Below are positions 18,184-27,209 of a stretch of 32,060 nucleotides of DNA, piece by piece. A model generated the notes under the pieces. The model had not been told where the DNA came from and did no database searches. It saw nothing but the letters and a program-made list of their open reading frames with translations. Positions within the stretch are counted from its first letter, which is position 1; each line of letters starts with the position of its first letter. The stretch spans positions 1 through 32,060 of the forward strand of contig JAIQZU010000072.1 in the NCBI GenBank assembly GCA_021776915.1. Direction: 5' to 3'. The position numbers were made by a program, and so were the translations under genes. Origin of the DNA: Candidatus Scalindua sp. (GTDB taxonomy: Bacteria > Planctomycetota > Brocadiia > Brocadiales > Scalinduaceae).

Positions 18184-18936
18184 CTACCGCATCAAAATAT
18201 TAGAAGTCAGCATTCTTACGATATGCAAAAATGCATAAACAAAGTCTCTGAAGGCAATAACGAGTCTTTCAATGTCGACTTCCATTGAATCTCTATCTAC
18301 GCCATCTATAAGAATCTTGCCGTCTGACCACTTGAGTTCCCTCATAAAAGGATAATCTTTACCAATTACTTCACTGGACCGATTGATTATCAACATAATT
18401 ACTGAGTCACCGATGATGGGTTTTATCTTTTCAATAATTAACTTATTGAGAATAACAGGGATGATGAGAAAGAAATCATTACGGCTGAAGTCGCCTGTTA
18501 ACTTGATTAAAAAATTGATATAGTTTAAGTCCAGACTTTTTTCCCCCTTGTTTTTCAGTTCAATTTCTCTGAAGATAGTGCCTATACGCTCTAAAAATGT
18601 GTCTGTTTCGAATGGTTTGAGCGCGAAACTGTCTGCGCCTGACTCAATAGCGCCGGCTATTCTATAACCGTCTTTTTTATAGGTAAGAACAACAATAGGC
18701 AAATCCTGGAAACGCGGTTCTTTTTTTAGTGTGCGGCAAAGTTCAAGAGATGCCTCCGTAATTTCAGGATAATCGAGGTCTATTAAGAGAATATCAAATT
18801 TTCCCCCGGATACGGATGAATGAACCTCCTTAAGATTATCTATTGACTCAACTGCATAGCCTTCTGTCATAAGCCAATTTACAAAAATCTCTGCCTGTTC
18901 CCTGTCTGGTTCAACTAGTAAAACCCTTTTTTGCAT
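18184..18936 (-). CDS. Receiver domain protein with unrecognised C-terminal domain
   Basis: The ATG at 18936 with GGAGCGAT upstream is preferred over a GTG at 18957. The first 120 or so residues are a receiver domain: acidic E9/D11, phospho-acceptor D53 (LLIDLDYPEI), conserved Lys in ALKPFE. The remaining 130 residues (from about SLDLNYINFLIKLTGDF) form a domain I do not recognise. It contains hydrophobic helices (PVILNKLIIEKIKPIIG), a beta pair (WSDGKILIDGVD) and a C-terminal helix (FRDFVYAFLHIVRML). It is not DNA-binding, PilZ, HD-GYP or GGDEF in appearance. Its place between kaiC/RAYT and the kinase cluster makes it a possible output regulator for the Kai timer (inference). Confidence 0.8.
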   Translation of the reverse strand: MQKRVLLVEPDREQAEIFVNWLMTEGYAVESIDNLKEVHSSVSGGKFDILLIDLDYPEITEASLELCRTLKKEPRFQDLPIVVLTYKKDGYRIAGAIESGADSFALKPFETDTFLERIGTIFREIELKNKGEKSLDLNYINFLIKLTGDFSRNDFFLIIPVILNKLIIEKIKPIIGDSVIMLIINRSSEVIGKDYPFMRELKWSDGKILIDGVDRDSMEVDIERLVIAFRDFVYAFLHIVRMLTSNILMR

Positions 18937-19070
18937 TATCGCTATCGCTCCATACACTGACTAACGCTGACTACAGCACTGACATACACTGACGATTATG
19001 AACTGTACCAAAATTATTTTCTCATCAACTAAAAAATCTGGCTGATAAGGTTTGTTCCTTAGAATCCGTA

Positions 19071-20052: not shown

Positions 20053-21567
20053 TTAGCCCAACTTCTTCAATTCGTATTCTTCGGCTAGTATTATGGAACG
20101 GGCCATTCCGGTCATGATCCCTTCAACTCCAGAGAAAGGTTCTTTTATATTTATTCCATTATTACCGATTTCAAACTCGCGTATCTCTTTTTCGTGATTA
20201 CTTCCACGCATCTTTATAACGGTTATCCCCCTTCTCATCTCGCCATGCATTTCAACATATCTTAAGATCACAATAGCATCCGTAAGAGTCGAAATATGGG
20301 CTTCCGTGATAGATTCACCTCCTAAGAGTGTCTTAGAGGTCGATGTAAACAAACCTGCTATCTCTTTTAACTTTGTATAGCTTGTAAGACTAATGACGAA
20401 ATCTCTAAAAGAATTTAAACTAAGTACTCTCTCCATAGCCGAAAGGGAATCTACGACTAATCTGTTTGGTTTAAAATCTTCAAGCTGATCTTTAATAAAC
20501 AAAAGATGATCTTCAGGTCCCATCGTTTCCGGATATCTGCAAACTACTCTTAGCAACCCTTTATTTATGTGCTTCGTTAAGTCTACACCCCAACTTAAAC
20601 CATTTCTTACGAGCTGATTCTGGGATTCTTCATAAGCAAACAAAATGCATCTTTCACCGTTATTACATCCTGAATCTACAAAAGTCGTTGACATAGTGGT
20701 CTTTCCCGTTCCTGTAGGCCCAGAGACCAGAATAATGGAATCCCTGAATAATCCTCCACCGGTCATCCTGTCCAGCTCCTTGTTTCCAAGGGTGATCCTT
20801 TTCATAGAAGAGCGTTGGATTAATTCTAAGCCCGAAAGTGGAAGAATTTTGAAACCTATTTTAGATATTGTAAAAGGGAATTCTCCTTTCTGGTGGACGG
20901 TGCCCCGAAATTTCAGGATTTCAATAGTTCTACGTCTTTTCTCTCCTTCTAAGACATTACGCAGGATGATGACATTATCTGAGACAAATTCTTCAACACC
21001 AAACCGGGCCACCTCGCCATACTCCTCTATTCGTTCGCTCGTTAAGATGGTCGTAATACCTATTCTTTTAAGCGCCGCGGTAAGATTAAATAATTCCCTC
21101 CTGATAAGCCCGGCATCCTGATACTGAGGAAAAAGGGCTGTGATAGAATCAATAGCGACTCGTTTAGCCTTAACTTTCTTTATCGCATAAATGATTCTGG
21201 CTATCAATGCCCCAAAGTCATAACTGCCTGCTAATATTTTATCACCCTCTGTAGGTGAAGCATCCACAAAAGCAAGCTTTCCTGTCTTTTCCATAGTTCT
21301 AAGATCCCAGCCTAAACTTTCCACATTTTTGCAGATATCGCCAGGGGTCTCCTCAAAGGTAACAAAGACTCCATTCTCCTTATATTTATTCATTCCCCGC
21401 CACAGAAATTCAATAGAATAAATGGTTTTTCCTGAACCGGAAGTCCCGGAAATAAGTGTCGCCCGTCCTTTAGGAAGCCCCCCCTCAGAAATGACACTAA
21501 ACCCTTCTATGCCTGTATCGACTTTTCCAAATATCTGGTTTTTTTTCACAACTTTCTTTTTAAGCAT
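20053..21567 (-). CDS. kaiC: KaiC, two-domain clock ATPase/autokinase
   Basis: A 504-aa protein with both RecA-like domains of KaiC. CI has Walker A GTSGSGKT and the catalytic Glu pair in VTFEETPGD. CII has Walker A GPTGTGKT and FAYEESQNQL. The CII autophosphorylation site is conserved: S426-T427 in HISTLTDAI, matching S431/T432 of the Synechococcus protein, with the preceding Thr of ITEA also kept. The C-terminal extension is about 15 residues shorter than cyanobacterial KaiC, so the A-loop/tail that binds KaiA may differ. KaiC hexamers in other organisms hydrolyse ATP and cycle phosphorylation as a clock or hourglass. GGAGGAG lies before the ATG. kaiB is immediately upstream. Confidence 0.95.
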   Translation of the reverse strand: MLKKKVVKKNQIFGKVDTGIEGFSVISEGGLPKGRATLISGTSGSGKTIYSIEFLWRGMNKYKENGVFVTFEETPGDICKNVESLGWDLRTMEKTGKLAFVDASPTEGDKILAGSYDFGALIARIIYAIKKVKAKRVAIDSITALFPQYQDAGLIRRELFNLTAALKRIGITTILTSERIEEYGEVARFGVEEFVSDNVIILRNVLEGEKRRRTIEILKFRGTVHQKGEFPFTISKIGFKILPLSGLELIQRSSMKRITLGNKELDRMTGGGLFRDSIILVSGPTGTGKTTMSTTFVDSGCNNGERCILFAYEESQNQLVRNGLSWGVDLTKHINKGLLRVVCRYPETMGPEDHLLFIKDQLEDFKPNRLVVDSLSAMERVLSLNSFRDFVISLTSYTKLKEIAGLFTSTSKTLLGGESITEAHISTLTDAIVILRYVEMHGEMRRGITVIKMRGSNHEKEIREFEIGNNGINIKEPFSGVEGIMTGMARSIILAEEYELKKLG

Positions 21568-21793: not shown

Positions 21794-22078
21794 CTACAAT
21801 AAATCCAAACCCAACAGCACCTTTTCTTTATCACTTAAATCACCAATTATTCTTCTGATTGGCTCTGGGAGGACCCTGGCTAATGTAGGCGTCGCCAGAA
21901 TCTTATGATCTTCTGCTAATTGAGGGTTCTTTATAACATCGATTATTTGTAGCTCATAGATGCCTTTAAGTTCTTCAGCCATTAGTTTCTTCAAGTTGCT
22001 AATTGCACGAATAGCATTAGGTGTTTGGCCAGTTACATAGAGTTTTAAGACATACTTCCTTCCTGCTTTTTTCTTCAT
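21794..22078 (-). CDS. kaiB: KaiB, fold-switching clock protein
   Basis: A 94-aa protein matching KaiB almost end to end: [18 protein letters not shown] at the start, [20 protein letters not shown] in the middle, and [20 protein letters not shown] at the C-terminus. KaiB binds the CI ring of phosphorylated KaiC and, in cyanobacteria, sequesters KaiA. The short length without the acidic tail is common outside cyanobacteria. GGAG lies 8 nt before the ATG. A MITE-like repeat ends 24 nt before the start codon, so transcription may start from or through that element. It runs in the same direction as kaiC, 226 bp upstream. Confidence 0.96.
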
Positions 22079-22101
22079 TTTATAATCTCCATATTTTCTT
22101 T

Positions 22102-22237
22102 TAACCTAAATTGAGCGATTTTATTTTACATGCCGTTGTCGCCGTCCGCCTAGGTGGACGTTTTTCATCACTTGATGGGTTTGCGTAAGTTACGCAACCT
22201 CAAGGTTGCGGCTACGAAATCGCTCAATTTGAGGTTA
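22102..22237. mobile_element. MITE-like element (AAATTGAGCGATTT ends) upstream of kaiB
   Basis: 136 bp with terminal inverted repeats TAACCTAAATTGAGCGATTT and AAATCGCTCAATTTGAGGTTA (one 1-nt indel). The core holds a GTAG REP on the minus strand, GTAGCCGCAACCTTGAGGTTGC, and a CCGTCCGCCTAGGTGGACG palindrome. This is the most complete of three copies. Confidence 0.7.
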
Positions 22238-22280
22238 AAATATTAAATTAGGCCTTCGGCAACTTCAATTGTCACAAATA

Positions 22281-22440
22281 ATGTAGGGCGAGAGGCTTTC
22301 TGCCTGTGCGTGTCGCCTGTCTGCGTGCGGACACGCACAGGCAGGCACGCAGACAGGTAGCCTTGCTCCACGGCTCAATACGAGTGGAACAGCAACCCTA
22401 AAGGCGTTTACGTCCGCCTCTGGAGGGGTTGCCCTACGAT
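22281..22440. repeat. GTAG REP pair with very large palindromic insertions
   Basis: The outer units are TAGGGCGAGAGGC...AGCCTTGC and GGGTTGCCCTAC. One hairpin tip holds nested CTGCCTGTGCGTG / CACGCACAGGCAG arms. The other half holds AAAGGCGTTTACGTCCGCC, the inverted copy of the one at 19755. The remaining 22441-22576 contains a GC-rich CCTGCCTGCCGGTAGGCAGG palindrome and no gene. Confidence 0.65.
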
Positions 22441-22576
22441 CTAAACTTTGACAACATTGAATTTCCTATACATTAAATTGACGCCCTCCGGGCGGGCTAC
22501 GATTGTCAACTGTAGCGCCTGCCTGCCGGTAGGCAGGGAGGTCTTTAGACCTACACACCACGGGAATAAATCCAAT

Positions 22577-22820
22577 TTAAACATTCATATAACCATCTTT
22601 GATAACTATCCTCCCTTCTTCTTCTAAACGGTTGACGATCCATGGTTTCCTTTTTCTTTTAATACTATATTCTTTTACATTCCCTATCTTCGCGAGATCA
22701 ATACCCAAACTTAACCCGTTGCGGTATAGCTGGTCTCTTGATTCTTCATAAGCAAATAGCATTGATTTCTTTTTATATTTAAAACCGGCAGACTGGCATG
22801 ATTGAACCAGCATGACGGAA
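22577..22820 (-). pseudogene. kaiC remnant (CII fragment)
   Basis: An open frame here contains MLFAYEESRDQLYRNG and LSLGIDLAK, aligned residue by residue with FAYEESQNQLVRNG and LSWGVDL of the intact KaiC second domain. The conserved piece spans about 22690-22800. Upstream it is cut by a GGAG BIME at 22821. Downstream it changes to an unrelated basic tail (KRKRKPWIVNRLEEEG). No Walker motif or phosphorylation site survives. It lies on the opposite side of kaiB from the intact kaiC, so the locus once had two kaiC genes or suffered a duplication. Confidence 0.7.
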
Positions 22821-22905
22821 TATGGAGTGCATCGACCATGTCGATGTTCGCCACAGCGAATCTGCCTTTGGCCGTGACAGGCAGTGATACGATCACTGCA
22901 CTCCA
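22821..22905. repeat. GGAG-type BIME truncating the kaiC remnant
   Basis: GGAGTGCATCGACCATGTCGATG and CAGTGATACGATCACTG-CACTCC. The interior holds GCGAATCTGCCTTTGGC, a segment also present in the GTAG REP clusters. Confidence 0.75.
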
Positions 22906-23094
22906 AAAAAACATCCTCCCTCGCCTTGCTTCTTATACGTTTCAATCCACAATCTCCAATCATCAATCGTAAATCCAAAATCATCCTTGTTATTACTCCG
23001 GCAATTAAATACGTGAACTATTTTTCGTTTATTTATAAATATTTAGATCTTTAAGCTCTGATAGGTTGAGCCTATTTAATTGCCATGTTAACAG

Positions 23095-23640
23095 TTAGTG
23101 TCGCTCCCTCAGGAGCGAAGCATATCTTGTCATAACCATTAGTAACACCATCCTGACTGCAGAAACCTTTCTTTGTGCGTCTTCTCGATTTATATCATCG
23201 GCTACCTTCTTAACTGAGGCTATATGTAATTCTACAATCGTTTTCGGCAGCGTATCATTTGAAATAAAATTTTTGCATAATTCATCGACTAAAACATCGC
23301 TTCTTTTTCGATCATTTTTGATATAAAGGTCTAAAAGGTTATCATACTTTAGTAGAATTTTTTTCGATATCTTTTCCACGCCTTTCCTTCCCTCTTTCTT
23401 GTCTTTTGCAGATGATGCTATTTCAGACTGACCAATCATACGTTTTTGTTCCGCAAGGATTCTCTCATTTTCTTGCCTGAGCTTTTGAGCGCTTTCCTGT
23501 AATCTGCGGTTGCTATCGATTACTACCTGTCTCAACTCTTTATGTCTGGATTCAAATTTCTCCAGCTCTGTTATCCGTTTTTTAAAAGCTTTAATATCCT
23601 TAAGAAGTTGCTCCCTGGTTTTTTCTTTATTTTTCATCAT
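23095..23640 (-). CDS. Coiled-coil protein with KaiA/RsbU-like C-terminal domain
   Basis: A 181-aa protein. Residues about 5-80 are a charged coiled coil (KKRITELEKFESRHKEL...). Residues about 91-181 are all-helical: LLKYDNLLDLYIKN, VDELCKNFISN, TIVELHIASVKKVADD, MVLLMVMTRYASLLRER. By eye, this order and spacing follow the KaiA C-terminal domain (LL..YF, VDEF..RAF, VLEIH, LCEMYRRSI, from memory) and the related RsbU N-terminal fold. KaiA uses this domain to bind the KaiC tail and stimulate phosphorylation. RsbU uses it to bind RsbT-like partners. Its place three features upstream of kaiB and kaiC, same strand, favours a Kai role. Only weak Shine-Dalgarno bases precede the ATG. There is no pseudo-receiver domain as in cyanobacterial KaiA. 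Confidence 0.6.
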   Translation of the reverse strand: MMKNKEKTREQLLKDIKAFKKRITELEKFESRHKELRQVVIDSNRRLQESAQKLRQENERILAEQKRMIGQSEIASSAKDKKEGRKGVEKISKKILLKYDNLLDLYIKNDRKRSDVLVDELCKNFISNDTLPKTIVELHIASVKKVADDINREDAQRKVSAVRMVLLMVMTRYASLLRERH

Positions 23641-23696: not shown

Positions 23697-24018
23697 TTAT
23701 GTATAAATTCTTCGTTTTACAGTTAATTTACTTGTTCCAAAATTAACTAATAAAACCAACTTATAATTAGTTCCCTTCAGTAGTGTCCGGTTAGGTTTTT
23801 GCATGTAAGGGTTTTTATACCCGATTTGTCAGAAGATACGTAGGGCGAGGCTTTAGCCTTGCGCTAAATATACGAAAGCAAACCTAAAGGATTGCCCTAC
23901 GTGTTACATGCAAAAACCTAACCGGACACTACTGAGTTCACTTAATGTAATAATAGATCTGATCAAACATTTCTTTTGTAATCGTTGGTACAGCTTTTAA
24001 TTCTAAAATAACCCATCC
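23697..24018 (-). pseudogene. GxxExxY remnant interrupted by a MITE
   Basis: On the minus strand VILELKAVPTITKEMFDQI (from 24018) is the core of a GxxExxY protein. After the MITE, TNYKLVLLVNFGTSKLTVKR continues to a stop at 23697, the family C-terminus. The N-terminal half with the GxxExxY motif is missing, and a TGA follows YYYIK at the MITE edge. Confidence 0.75.
23778..23934. mobile_element. Intact MITE with CAGTAGTGTCCGG ends and GTAG REP core
   Basis: 157 bp. The ends CAGTAGTGTCCGGTTAGG and CCTAACCGGACACTACTG are perfectly inverted and extend through TTTTTGCATG. The core 23840-23901 is a GTAG REP pair (GTAGGGCGAGGCTTTAGCC ... ATTGCCCTACG). There is no open frame, so a transposase elsewhere must move it. 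It is inserted in a GxxExxY gene. No clear target duplication is visible. Confidence 0.8.
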
Positions 24019-24073: not shown

Positions 24074-24622
24074 TTAAAATTTCACCTTCACTGACACAAT
24101 TCCCGAGGAAACCGAGAACTCAACCGAACGGCCCTGTGAGCCGCCCACACATTCCCCAACAATACTTATATCTTTCTCTTTAAGGTTTTCTTTCGCGCTT
24201 AAAACATTTTCCCTGCCGATATCTGACACAAAAGAGGTAAACATGTTTGCCCCGCCCACGATCTTAGCCTCTAATCTCCCCCTTTTTGAGCCCTGAGCCT
24301 CCAATCTTTTCAGCATCTCATCTATGGCGGTATCAGTGTATTTGGTATCTCCCGCCTCCGCTGAATTACTTGCGCGTTCAGATTCCTCCTTCGCCAAATT
24401 GTTTTCACGTTTGGCTTTGGAGGAGAGGTCGTCTGACAGGCTTCCTTTGTCTTTCGTCCTTCGTCTCCGGTCTCTCGACGGCAGCATAACATGCGCCATT
24501 GCTCCTGTTTTAAGTTCGGGGTCGAAGAGCGTAATGATCAAACAGGAACCGACCCCGGATGCCGTCAGGGTCTCTCCACATCTACCTCCTTTTATTTCCC
24601 CCATCTTTACTTCTATATCCAT
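24074..24622 (-). CDS. cheD: CheD chemoreceptor deamidase
   Basis: A 182-aa CheD, which deamidates glutamines in chemoreceptors and partners CheC. The catalytic Cys27 (GVGSCLIITLFD) and His44 (GAMAHVMLP) are present at the same numbers as in Thermotoga CheD. The position matching Thr21 there is Ala here by ungapped count, with Thr20 next to it. KIVGGANMF, IGRENV and GGSQGRSVEFSVSSG complete the fold. Residues about 51-91 are an extra charged insertion after MLPSR, where the family has a short loop. The DNA there is palindromic. The gene follows cheC, as is usual for a CheC-CheD pair. Confidence 0.92.
   Translation of the reverse strand: MDIEVKMGEIKGGRCGETLTASGVGSCLIITLFDPELKTGAMAHVMLPSRDRRRRTKDKGSLSDDLSSKAKRENNLAKEESERASNSAEAGDTKYTDTAIDEMLKRLEAQGSKRGRLEAKIVGGANMFTSFVSDIGRENVLSAKENLKEKDISIVGECVGGSQGRSVEFSVSSGIVSVKVKF
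24350..24472. repeat. Palindromic in-frame insertion within cheD
   Basis: TCCTCC...GCCAAA at 24384-24398 pairs with TTTGGC...GGAGGA at 24410-24424, an 11-nt-loop hairpin encoding SSKAKRENNLAKEE. The flank holds CTTTCGTCCTTCG, shared with the cheB insertion. The enclosing loop adds about 40 residues to CheD. Confidence 0.65.
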
Positions 24623-24750: not shown

Positions 24751-25329
24751 CTAACTTTCCAGCGGCCCCATGATTGCTTCCAGTTTTTCCATCTCCAATA
24801 GTAATAGAAAATATCCTCTAAAGGTTTTTGGTTTAAAGTAAAATTCTACTTCTATAATTATTACCCTTTCTTCCTCTTGAGCAAATTTAGAAACAATCTG
24901 GCCCAGTATTGCCCCAAACATGTCAAAACTGAAAATGGGAATATGCTCGGTTATTTTGACATGCAGGGTATTTGCAAGAACTGTAAAATAACTACCGGAA
25001 ATAATGTTTCCCACTTCTTTTAAAGCGGACTCATCAAGTTCCGTTAACTTGCGAGTTGTCCCCGGCTCTCTTTTAACCAGTAAATCACAAAAGGTAAAAG
25101 CAGTTTCCTTGGGGAATATCAACAATGCTGCTCCTTTTACTTCGCCTGTAACAGGGAGATATATCCCGGCAACTATCTCCTCAGGGCTGATAACTGGACT
25201 AAGTTGTTCCACTTTTTTTATTTCCACATTGGAAATTTCTATGTCAACAGGGCTGTCAGTTAGTTTTGATAAGGCAGTAGAAGCATTCAAAGCGGCTTGT
25301 GTGTTTATTTCATTTAGCTTGTTTTGCAA
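24751..25329 (-). CDS. cheC: CheC-family CheY-P phosphatase
   Basis: A 192-aa protein with the pseudo-symmetric CheC fold. The second active-site helix is canonical: ESALKEVGNIISGSYF with Glu and Asn in E-x2-N, and a Pro in TEHIP. The first (LNEINTQAALNAST) lacks the matching E-x2-N, so only one site is likely active. CheC removes phosphate from CheY-P and is modulated by CheD, encoded next. The start is a TTG at 25329 with GGAGG 6 nt upstream and no nearby ATG. A MITE-like element ends 20 nt before this start codon. Confidence 0.85.
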   Translation of the reverse strand: MQNKLNEINTQAALNASTALSKLTDSPVDIEISNVEIKKVEQLSPVISPEEIVAGIYLPVTGEVKGAALLIFPKETAFTFCDLLVKREPGTTRKLTELDESALKEVGNIISGSYFTVLANTLHVKITEHIPIFSFDMFGAILGQIVSKFAQEEERVIIIEVEFYFKPKTFRGYFLLLLEMEKLEAIMGPLES

Positions 25330-25466: not shown

Positions 25467-27209
25467 TTAAATGCGGCCATTCGTGTTAGATTCTCGTACA
25501 TTCGCGTCCCATTGGCGTTTAGTCAAAACCAGATTGTCCACATCCAGAAGCAGGACAACATCTCCGGAACCGATTATAGTAGAGCCGGCTAAATATCTAT
25601 TCTCCCTTACTATTTTATTTAGTGGTTTAACCACTATCTCTTGAGTGTCCATAAAGGCATCAGCCGCCAAACCAAGTTTTTCTCCCCCTTTTCTAATAAT
25701 TACTATCGGCAGCCTGTCAAATCCCCCTCCCTGCCCGACAGATGACAGGCGGGTTTCCCCCCTTTTCAAAGGGGGATCATGAGGATTTTTCTTCTTTTCC
25801 AAAGGGGGATTAAGTAATACATTCAGTCTTGTTATAGGAATTTCCTCTTCGTTCAAAACAATGGCTTCATAATTCACCATTCCTTTTATATCGGATTTAC
25901 TTACATTAACTAATCTTTCAATGCTTGCTAAAGGGATTGCATATATTATGCCTCCAACCTCAACGAACATAGCTTTTATAATAGCCAGGGTTAGTGGTAT
26001 CTCTATGGCAAATGTTGCTCCTTTTTTTGATTCTGACTCTACTTTAATAGCGCCTCCGAGATATTCGATTTTATTTTTGACTATATTTAAACCGAAACCC
26101 CTTCCAGAAACTGCCGTAACCTGTTTAGTAGTGCTCACGCCGGAAAAGATTGAATTCACCACTTCTTCTTTCGTTGCTTGTGGGGTTATAATTCCCCGTT
26201 CTGCAGCCGTATTCCTTACGTGGTCAAAATCCAGGCCGGCTCCGTCATCGGCAACCTCAATAACGGCAAAACCTTTTGTCCTTGCGGCAGTTAGCTTTAT
26301 CGTTCCCTCAGGAGGCTTGCCTGACTTTACTCTCTCTTCCGCCCTCTCGATACCATGATCTATGGCGTTTCTTAAAAGATGTACCAGGGATTCTCCAATT
26401 TCGTCTATCACCGTTCTATCCAACTCTATATCGCTTCCTTCCATTTGCAGATTTACTTCTTTATTCTGTTGTTTGGCAAGGTCCCTGACCATTCTGGGGA
26501 ATCTATTAAAAACAAATCCTATAGGCACCAGCCTTGACTGCATAACATTGTATTGCACATCGGTTATGAGCCTTCCCAGCGCATCTACGGCAACGGTTAA
26601 TTCAGGGTGTTGAAGGTTTTCCTTGATCCCATCAAGTCTCATCTTGTTAATTAATAGCTCTTCTGCCAGATTCATAAGCAAATCAAGCCTTTTTACTTTT
26701 ACCTCTATACTCGTAATCTTCTCTACGGTAAGCGTTGTCGGTCGCTTGCTCCCTTCTGTCGACTCTCGTCCCTCATCCATCTTCCCTCTCTCCGAGCCAG
26801 AGGCTCTACTGAGCCGGAGGCGTCCCTCGTCTATCGTGGATAAGACGCGCAGTTTCTCAACCAGTGTAGTGGTATCCGGTTCTTCACTGCCTTTATCAAG
26901 TTCTTTCAGGGTTAGCTCCAGAATATCAAAACATTCAAACAATAAATCAAAACACATGTCCGGTCTTATCTTCTTCTTTTTTATCGCATCTAACACATCT
27001 TCCATCGCATGGCACAAACGAGATACGTTATCGTATTTCATGGCGGCGGCCATGCTCTTTAAGGTGTGCGCATCGCGGAATATATCATTTACAAATTCTT
27101 CCTTATGCGGAGTCTTTTCCAGATTAAGCAGAGAACGGTTCATCGAATCTACGTGATCCCTCGCCTCGCTTAAAAAAATGTCTTTGTATTTGTTAATATC
27201 TTCAGGCAT
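25467..27209 (-). CDS. cheA: CheA chemotaxis histidine kinase (no P2 domain)
   Basis: A 580-aa kinase that phosphorylates CheY and CheB in response to the MCP-CheW array. The P1 Hpt domain (about 1-115) has H48 in DAHTLKSMAAAM. P3 dimerisation is at about 165-230. P4 ATPase (about 235-405) has HLLRNAIDHGIE, DDGAGLD and GRGFGLNIV. P5, which is CheW-like, spans about 407-565. There is no P2 CheY-docking domain: the P1-P3 linker is only about 45 residues and is partly repeat-derived (DEGRLRLSRASGSERG). A second extra segment at about 468-500 lies inside P5 and is also repeat DNA. All catalytic motifs are intact. AGGGG lies upstream of the ATG. Confidence 0.95.
   Translation of the reverse strand: MPEDINKYKDIFLSEARDHVDSMNRSLLNLEKTPHKEEFVNDIFRDAHTLKSMAAAMKYDNVSRLCHAMEDVLDAIKKKKIRPDMCFDLLFECFDILELTLKELDKGSEEPDTTTLVEKLRVLSTIDEGRLRLSRASGSERGKMDEGRESTEGSKRPTTLTVEKITSIEVKVKRLDLLMNLAEELLINKMRLDGIKENLQHPELTVAVDALGRLITDVQYNVMQSRLVPIGFVFNRFPRMVRDLAKQQNKEVNLQMEGSDIELDRTVIDEIGESLVHLLRNAIDHGIERAEERVKSGKPPEGTIKLTAARTKGFAVIEVADDGAGLDFDHVRNTAAERGIITPQATKEEVVNSIFSGVSTTKQVTAVSGRGFGLNIVKNKIEYLGGAIKVESESKKGATFAIEIPLTLAIIKAMFVEVGGIIYAIPLASIERLVNVSKSDIKGMVNYEAIVLNEEEIPITRLNVLLNPPLEKKKNPHDPPLKRGETRLSSVGQGGGFDRLPIVIIRKGGEKLGLAADAFMDTQEIVVKPLNKIVRENRYLAGSTIIGSGDVVLLLDVDNLVLTKRQWDANVRESNTNGRI
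25710..25810. repeat. AAATCCCCC/AAAGGGGGAT repeat in frame within cheA P5
   Basis: Contains AAATCCCCCTCC, a CTGCCCGACAG-ATGA-CAGGCGGG palindrome, and CCCCCCTTTTCAAAGGGGG, then a further TCCAAAGGGGGATTA. It encodes about 33 residues (KKKNPHDPPLKRGETRLSS...) absent from typical P5 domains. It is a repeat with another palindrome set inside it. Confidence 0.7.
26783..26822. repeat. Single 40-bp repeat in frame within cheA linker
   Basis: TCCCTCTCTCCGAGCC-AGAGGCTC-TACTGAGCC-GGAGGCG is the same unit as the triple repeat in pilB, nearly identical. It encodes GRLRLSRASGSERG between the P1 and P3 domains. Confidence 0.85.

Follow-up and report, generated by a model that had tools for sequence, protein, structure and literature searches.

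The window, the whole 32,060-nucleotide stretch of Candidatus Scalindua sp. DNA (Planctomycetota, Brocadiales) analyzed here, carries on its minus strand an MCP gene, left open by the edge of the window, and genes for CheW, a CheY-like regulator, CheB, CheA (25467..27209; Pfam Hpt, HATPase and CheW), a CheX/CheC-like protein (24751..25329; Pfam CheC-like), CheD (24074..24622; Pfam CheD), a KaiA-like protein (23095..23640), KaiB (21794..22078; Pfam KaiB with E = 1.5e-29, and NCBIfam KaiB) and KaiC (20053..21567), in that order. Judged by this gene order, the kai cluster is the end of a complete chemotaxis gene run. The genome also carries hydrazine synthase alpha, and the organism is therefore very probably an anammox bacterium. 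Between cheD and the KaiA-like gene, repeat analysis identified a MITE-like insert with perfect 32-bp inverted ends (23777..23935). The spacer between the KaiA-like gene and kaiB (22079..23094) is enlarged by dispersed repeats, as seen in a palindromic or MITE-like element of ~150 bases at ~22090-22251, with ~40 further copies in the genome. An ORF in the same spacer (22577-22984) contains a remnant of the KaiC CII domain (22688..22855, minus strand), found by tblastn with the window KaiC (E = 6e-9); this decayed piece points to an earlier duplication or rearrangement of kaiC. Beyond an IS200-like transposase on the downstream side of kaiC lies a response regulator (18184-18957, minus strand) with a C-terminal part of ~120 residues that has no assigned family. 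When this protein was modelled in search of a second KaiA-like domain, the mean pLDDT was 53, a model too poor to use.

The KaiA-like gene is an open frame of 181 codons, opposite a plus strand full of stops. It ends 1,016 bases before kaiB, as the preliminary description had it in placing an ORF about 1 kb upstream of kaiB and on the same strand as kaiB and kaiC. The product combines an N-terminal helical leader with a C-terminal KaiA-C/RsbU_N domain (residues 93-181; 23098..23364, minus strand), which matches Pfam RsbU_N over residues 98-173 (23122-23349) with E = 1.6e-6 and 28.6 bits (curated cut-off 25.5). Pfam KaiA (PF07688) gave no match to this protein, nor to anything else in its own genome. 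The ortholog in Candidatus Scalindua sp. OFTM180, of the same genus, is 238 aa long and 58% identical, the window protein being without ~50 residues of helix; it scores 23.6 bits against Pfam KaiA, above the cut-off of 22.2, and 24.4 bits against RsbU_N, just under the cut-off. A phmmer search of the PDB with the window protein returned coiled-coil matches only, e.g. XRCC4. By comparison of the two orthologs the KaiA-like gene is kept under purifying selection (dN ~0.30 and dS ~1.7, the latter near saturation). Of the 392 genomes of the phylum, no more than 5 have an RsbU_N match above the cut-off, and the match here is the sole one in its genome, which makes its placement beside kaiB very unlikely to be due to chance. 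In an alignment, the window domain shared with KaiA and the KaiA3-like proteins the His of a VVEIH-like motif and a pair of Arg residues in the last helix, while the first of these Arg was absent throughout the RsbU_N set (four sequences).

An AlphaFold (AF2) model, built from two sequences only (the window protein and its OFTM180 ortholog), had a mean pLDDT of 79 and a pTM of 0.46, with residues 73-88 poorly defined. It consists of a single long helix over residues 3-75, followed by helices at 79-107, 111-127, 132-147 and 152-180, the first model helix of the C-terminal domain starting from ~79. By searching the PDB with Foldseek, we found KaiA C-terminal structures (1v2z, 1q6a, 5jwr, 1r8j, 5n8y, 5c5e and 1r5q) to be the sole convincing group of natural proteins; 1v2z was matched with a probability of 1.00, an rmsd of 2.2 A over 95 columns and a TM-score of 0.73, and 1r5q with a TM-score of 0.80. 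RsbU (2j6y) was a poor match (probability 0.35, rmsd 6.1 A). The E-values were non-significant, as is usual for small helical bundles, with 0.23 for the best KaiA and a designed helical trimer in first place, and fold, sequence and context therefore have to be read together. With these non-significant E-values, the C-terminal domain is, in the model, a four-helix KaiA-C fold. The preliminary description had seen the KaiA-C/RsbU_N fold in the last ~90 residues and had proposed structure prediction as a check; the Pfam RsbU_N match, the KaiA match of the ortholog and the single-chain model all agree with it, the model showing four helices in the KaiA/RsbU fold, for which KaiA-C structures are the best natural matches in the PDB.

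The leader (residues 3-75; 23416..23634, minus strand) is modelled as a continuous helix, with pLDDT ~92-95 over residues 11-60, and is a probable coiled coil. Its score in a crude heptad test was no better than that of shuffled sequences, so we speak of a coiled coil on the strength of the predicted continuous helix and of homology with the leaders of other signaling proteins. No receiver or pseudo-receiver is found at the N-terminus of the model, which has one long helix instead. A second, paralogous che operon in OFTM180 encodes an MCP, CheW, CheY, CheB, CheA, CheX and CheD, followed by a PAS-GGDEF-EAL protein that fills the slot of the KaiA-like gene. The leader of this protein is 52% identical to the window leader over 63 residues (E = 2e-15). 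In its simplest reading, this similarity suggests that a KaiA-C-like domain was fused to a PAS-GGDEF-EAL-type leader in the same operon slot. The PAS-GGDEF-EAL protein was also considered as a histidine kinase, which its Pfam domains ruled out. When contigs were searched with an alignment of the window and OFTM180 proteins, the only full match was in OFTM180; three Atribacteria loci matched in the leader only, without the KaiA-C-like domain, and there the leaders precede what read as PAS-type sequence. Our guess is that the leader probably dimerizes or senses.

The neighboring KaiC has 504 aa and two ATPase domains, and reaches 668 bits against NCBIfam circ_KaiC (cut-off 546). It scores 610-649 bits to cyanobacterial-type KaiC in the PDB, compared with 331 bits to the Rhodobacter-type KaiC 8dba. 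Both Walker A motifs and the phosphosite motif ITEAHIST are intact. The double ATPase domain, the Ser-Thr phosphosite pair and a short A-loop tail without a coiled-coil extension fit the KaiC1/KaiC3 type. Aligned with the tails of cyanobacterial-type KaiC, the A-loop region and the short C-terminal tail (GVEGIMTGMARSIILAEEYELKKLG; 20056..20130, minus strand) form a putative, and probable, docking site, which is conserved in OFTM180; the S. elongatus tail is longer by ~10 residues.

In OFTM180 (G008, locus L073) the genes cheA, cheX, cheD, the KaiA-like gene, kaiB and kaiC follow one another, with 33 bases from the KaiA-like gene to kaiB; the window keeps this gene order, stretched by insertions. 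Among 17 genomes of the family, kaiB was found in two, which are also the only ones to have the KaiA-like gene, while CheX-like genes were found in 12. The gene thus appears to travel with kaiB and not with chemotaxis. Above the cut-off, kaiB is present in 28 of 392 genomes of the phylum, and in five other planctomycetes (G074, G036, G263, G168 and G229) the gene standing immediately ahead of kaiB has a KaiA-C-like domain at its end, which is joined to a receiver in four and to a dCache-HAMP-PAS sensor in G036. Homologs that never occur near kaiBC would have spoken against the preliminary description; what we found was a homolog 33 bases before kaiB and related domains directly before kaiB in these five. 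An HMM made from the window and OFTM180 domains alone had a single other match, the G168 gene (E = 0.0013), and one made from KaiA3-like domains alone detected the window protein at E = 6.5e-7 among 1,298 ORFs. KaiA-like genes accompanied KaiC at seven out of eight short-tail loci, counting G229, where KaiC is cut by the contig end, and at none of the remaining KaiC loci; the exception was the short-tail KaiC of G403. With tail classes that were drawn after the data had been seen, Fisher's test gave p = 4e-4 for nine loci in the second class (ten are listed) and 0.002 under a stricter class assignment.

The sequence of the domain falls between KaiA and RsbU_N, and the domain can therefore be assigned by sequence alone to neither. 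In a profile-profile comparison it was about equally near RsbU_N and the KaiA3-like domains. In a tree of 25 domains the window clade came out on the RsbU side with weak support (70/80); placing it with the KaiA3-like clade (p-AU 0.13) or with KaiA plus KaiA3 (p-AU 0.08) was not rejected. By the best evidence the protein would work like KaiA, and the tree fits descent from KaiA/KaiA3 as well as from RsbU_N stock. The latter might have happened by recruitment of an RsbU_N-type domain into the kaiBC operon, independently of cyanobacterial KaiA/KaiA3, through fusion to the leader of a c-di-GMP protein, a scenario that we put forward tentatively and regard as rather unlikely. If it were true, one fold superfamily would have supplied KaiC repeatedly with activators that bind its tail.

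Taken with the gene neighborhood, these results make it reasonably probable that the product of this gene plays the part of KaiA in an anammox planctomycete with a cluster of the kaiA-kaiB-kaiC type, being predicted to bind the KaiC tail and activate KaiC, with the leader in place of the receiver; the KaiBC system here probably has its own KaiA-like regulator. By analogy with the established biology of KaiA, we infer that the C-terminal four-helix domain probably forms a dimer that holds on to the short tail at the C-terminus of the neighboring KaiC. Such binding would expose the A-loop and favor autophosphorylation of CII at the conserved Ser/Thr pair, an effect that KaiB would reverse; the system might either oscillate or run as an hourglass. 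The long N-terminal helix would replace the receiver of KaiA/KaiA3 and probably serve in dimerization or link the clock with a partner in sensing or chemotaxis.

Another protein of this fold, the N-terminal domain of RsbU (PF08673; B. subtilis 1W53/2J6Y), belongs to the same superfamily and is the best Pfam match of the window protein. The gene could accordingly encode a partner-binding module of the RsbU_N type that acts in partner switching or chemotaxis, its adjacency to kaiBC being incidental. The weak tree placement on the RsbU side would suit such a module, as would the position after cheX-cheD and the related C-terminal domains elsewhere in planctomycetes that adjoin a STAS-like gene or occur by themselves, with no kaiBC. 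Yet RsbU carries its domain at the N-terminus of a PP2C phosphatase, whereas the window protein is without a PP2C domain and ends with its RsbU_N domain, which shares with KaiA a last-helix Arg that the RsbU set lacks. Nor was a stand-alone RsbT-like kinase found in the genome, where all matches to the RsbT/RsbW-type ATPase (PF13581) were below the cut-off and in kinase-sized frames of at least 360 aa. Since, furthermore, the structural match is KaiA and not RsbU, and the gene follows kaiB instead of the more widespread CheX-like genes, we consider a partner-switching module quite unlikely.

The protein might also bind KaiC, or KaiB-KaiC, as an adaptor for input from or output to chemotaxis or c-di-GMP signaling, and not as an activator of the kinase. 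A leader in common with the PAS-GGDEF-EAL protein of the paralogous operon speaks for this, and so does the kai cluster closing a complete chemotaxis gene run; against it, the domain is the very part of KaiA and KaiA3 that activates KaiC, and the A-B-C gene order is the same as that of known activators (PMC11372060). An adaptor in place of an activator is thus unlikely. Decay of the locus, with repeats and a kaiC fragment splitting the operon and the gene no longer working, would account for the ~1 kb of repeats and kaiC scrap before kaiB, the perfect MITE-like element ahead of the KaiA-like gene and the helix missing relative to the ortholog, but none of the three frames is broken, KaiC retains its conserved motifs and the KaiA-like gene shows purifying selection, so that we find a defunct gene highly improbable.

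Seen beside the known systems, the probable KaiA-role protein and its cluster resemble KaiA3 (the Sll0485 type of Synechocystis and some non-cyanobacteria, PMC11372060) in the C-terminal KaiA-C-like domain, in the gene lying directly upstream of kaiB and kaiC and in a KaiC1/KaiC3-like KaiC with conserved Ser-Thr phosphosites; they differ in having the helical leader instead of a receiver and in that the domain falls outside the planctomycete KaiA3-like clade in the tree, although the test did not reject its inclusion there. With cyanobacterial KaiA (S. elongatus 1R8J, Nostoc single-domain 1R5Q) the protein has in common the four-helix fold, the VVEIH-like His motif, the two last-helix Arg and the A-B-C gene order, here with a repeat-filled spacer of 1 kb; unlike it, the window protein is without a pseudo-receiver and below the Pfam KaiA threshold, with 14-16% identity in structural alignments. 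The KaiBC-only hourglass of Rhodobacter (KaiC2 type) likewise has kaiB and kaiC outside Cyanobacteria, but its KaiC has a long coiled-coil tail, seen as a forerunner of KaiA, and works without KaiA (PMC10076222), in contrast to the short-tail KaiC with a KaiA-like neighbor found here. The preliminary description set the gene against the view that KaiA is largely cyanobacterial and that other bacteria run KaiBC hourglasses. The gene does lie outside Cyanobacteria; such genes have already been published, namely kaiA3-kaiB3-kaiC3 clusters outside Cyanobacteria (Koebler et al. 2024, PMC11372060) and a KaiA from a member of the Planctomycetaceae (Dvornyk and Mei 2021, PMC8113500), and the pairing of a KaiA-like gene with kaiBC is consequently not new. 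Similarly, of the supposedly new coiled-coil architecture without the pseudo-receiver, the helical leader is new, whereas KaiA without the pseudo-receiver was known from single-domain proteins in Nostocales (PMC8113500). What appears to be new is the architecture with a helical leader, along with the sensor-linked G036 version, the occurrence in an anammox host and the setting in a chemotaxis operon; in the open literature we found no relevant paper that names kaiC and anammox together. This would place a full kai cluster of the A-B-C type in an anaerobic non-phototroph, adjoining a chemotaxis operon. Together with the receiver- and Cache/HAMP/PAS-linked versions in other planctomycetes, this suggests that the working part of KaiA is a portable KaiC-activating module with varied inputs. 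The protein is small and expressible, and could be used to ask whether non-cyanobacterial KaiBC systems are driven by KaiA; it also bears on the kinship of KaiA and the partner-switching domain of RsbU.

Some further planctomycete loci deserve mention. The G036 gene (L054:6696-8639, minus strand), with its dCache-HAMP-PAS and KaiA-C-like domains just ahead of kaiB, seemingly receives its input from a transmembrane sensory part. At L106, L107, L108 and L111, a family of ~330-370 aa proteins has a receiver-like N-terminal part that a linker joins to a KaiA-C-like domain at the C-terminus; neither kaiB nor kaiC was seen close to these loci. The proteins at L109:4400-5251 and L110:4856-5731 (receiver-like plus KaiA-C/RsbU_N-like) come right after a gene whose product looks like a STAS-domain protein, which hints at partner switching. 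Searching plasmids with a KaiA3-like protein from a planctomycete or with S. elongatus KaiA-C gave matches in the receiver part only, or none. Lastly, in the Brocadiales genomes G026 and G034 (L058 and L059), two kaiB genes lie close together on the downstream side of a long-tail kaiC, and a sensor-like gene comes after them.
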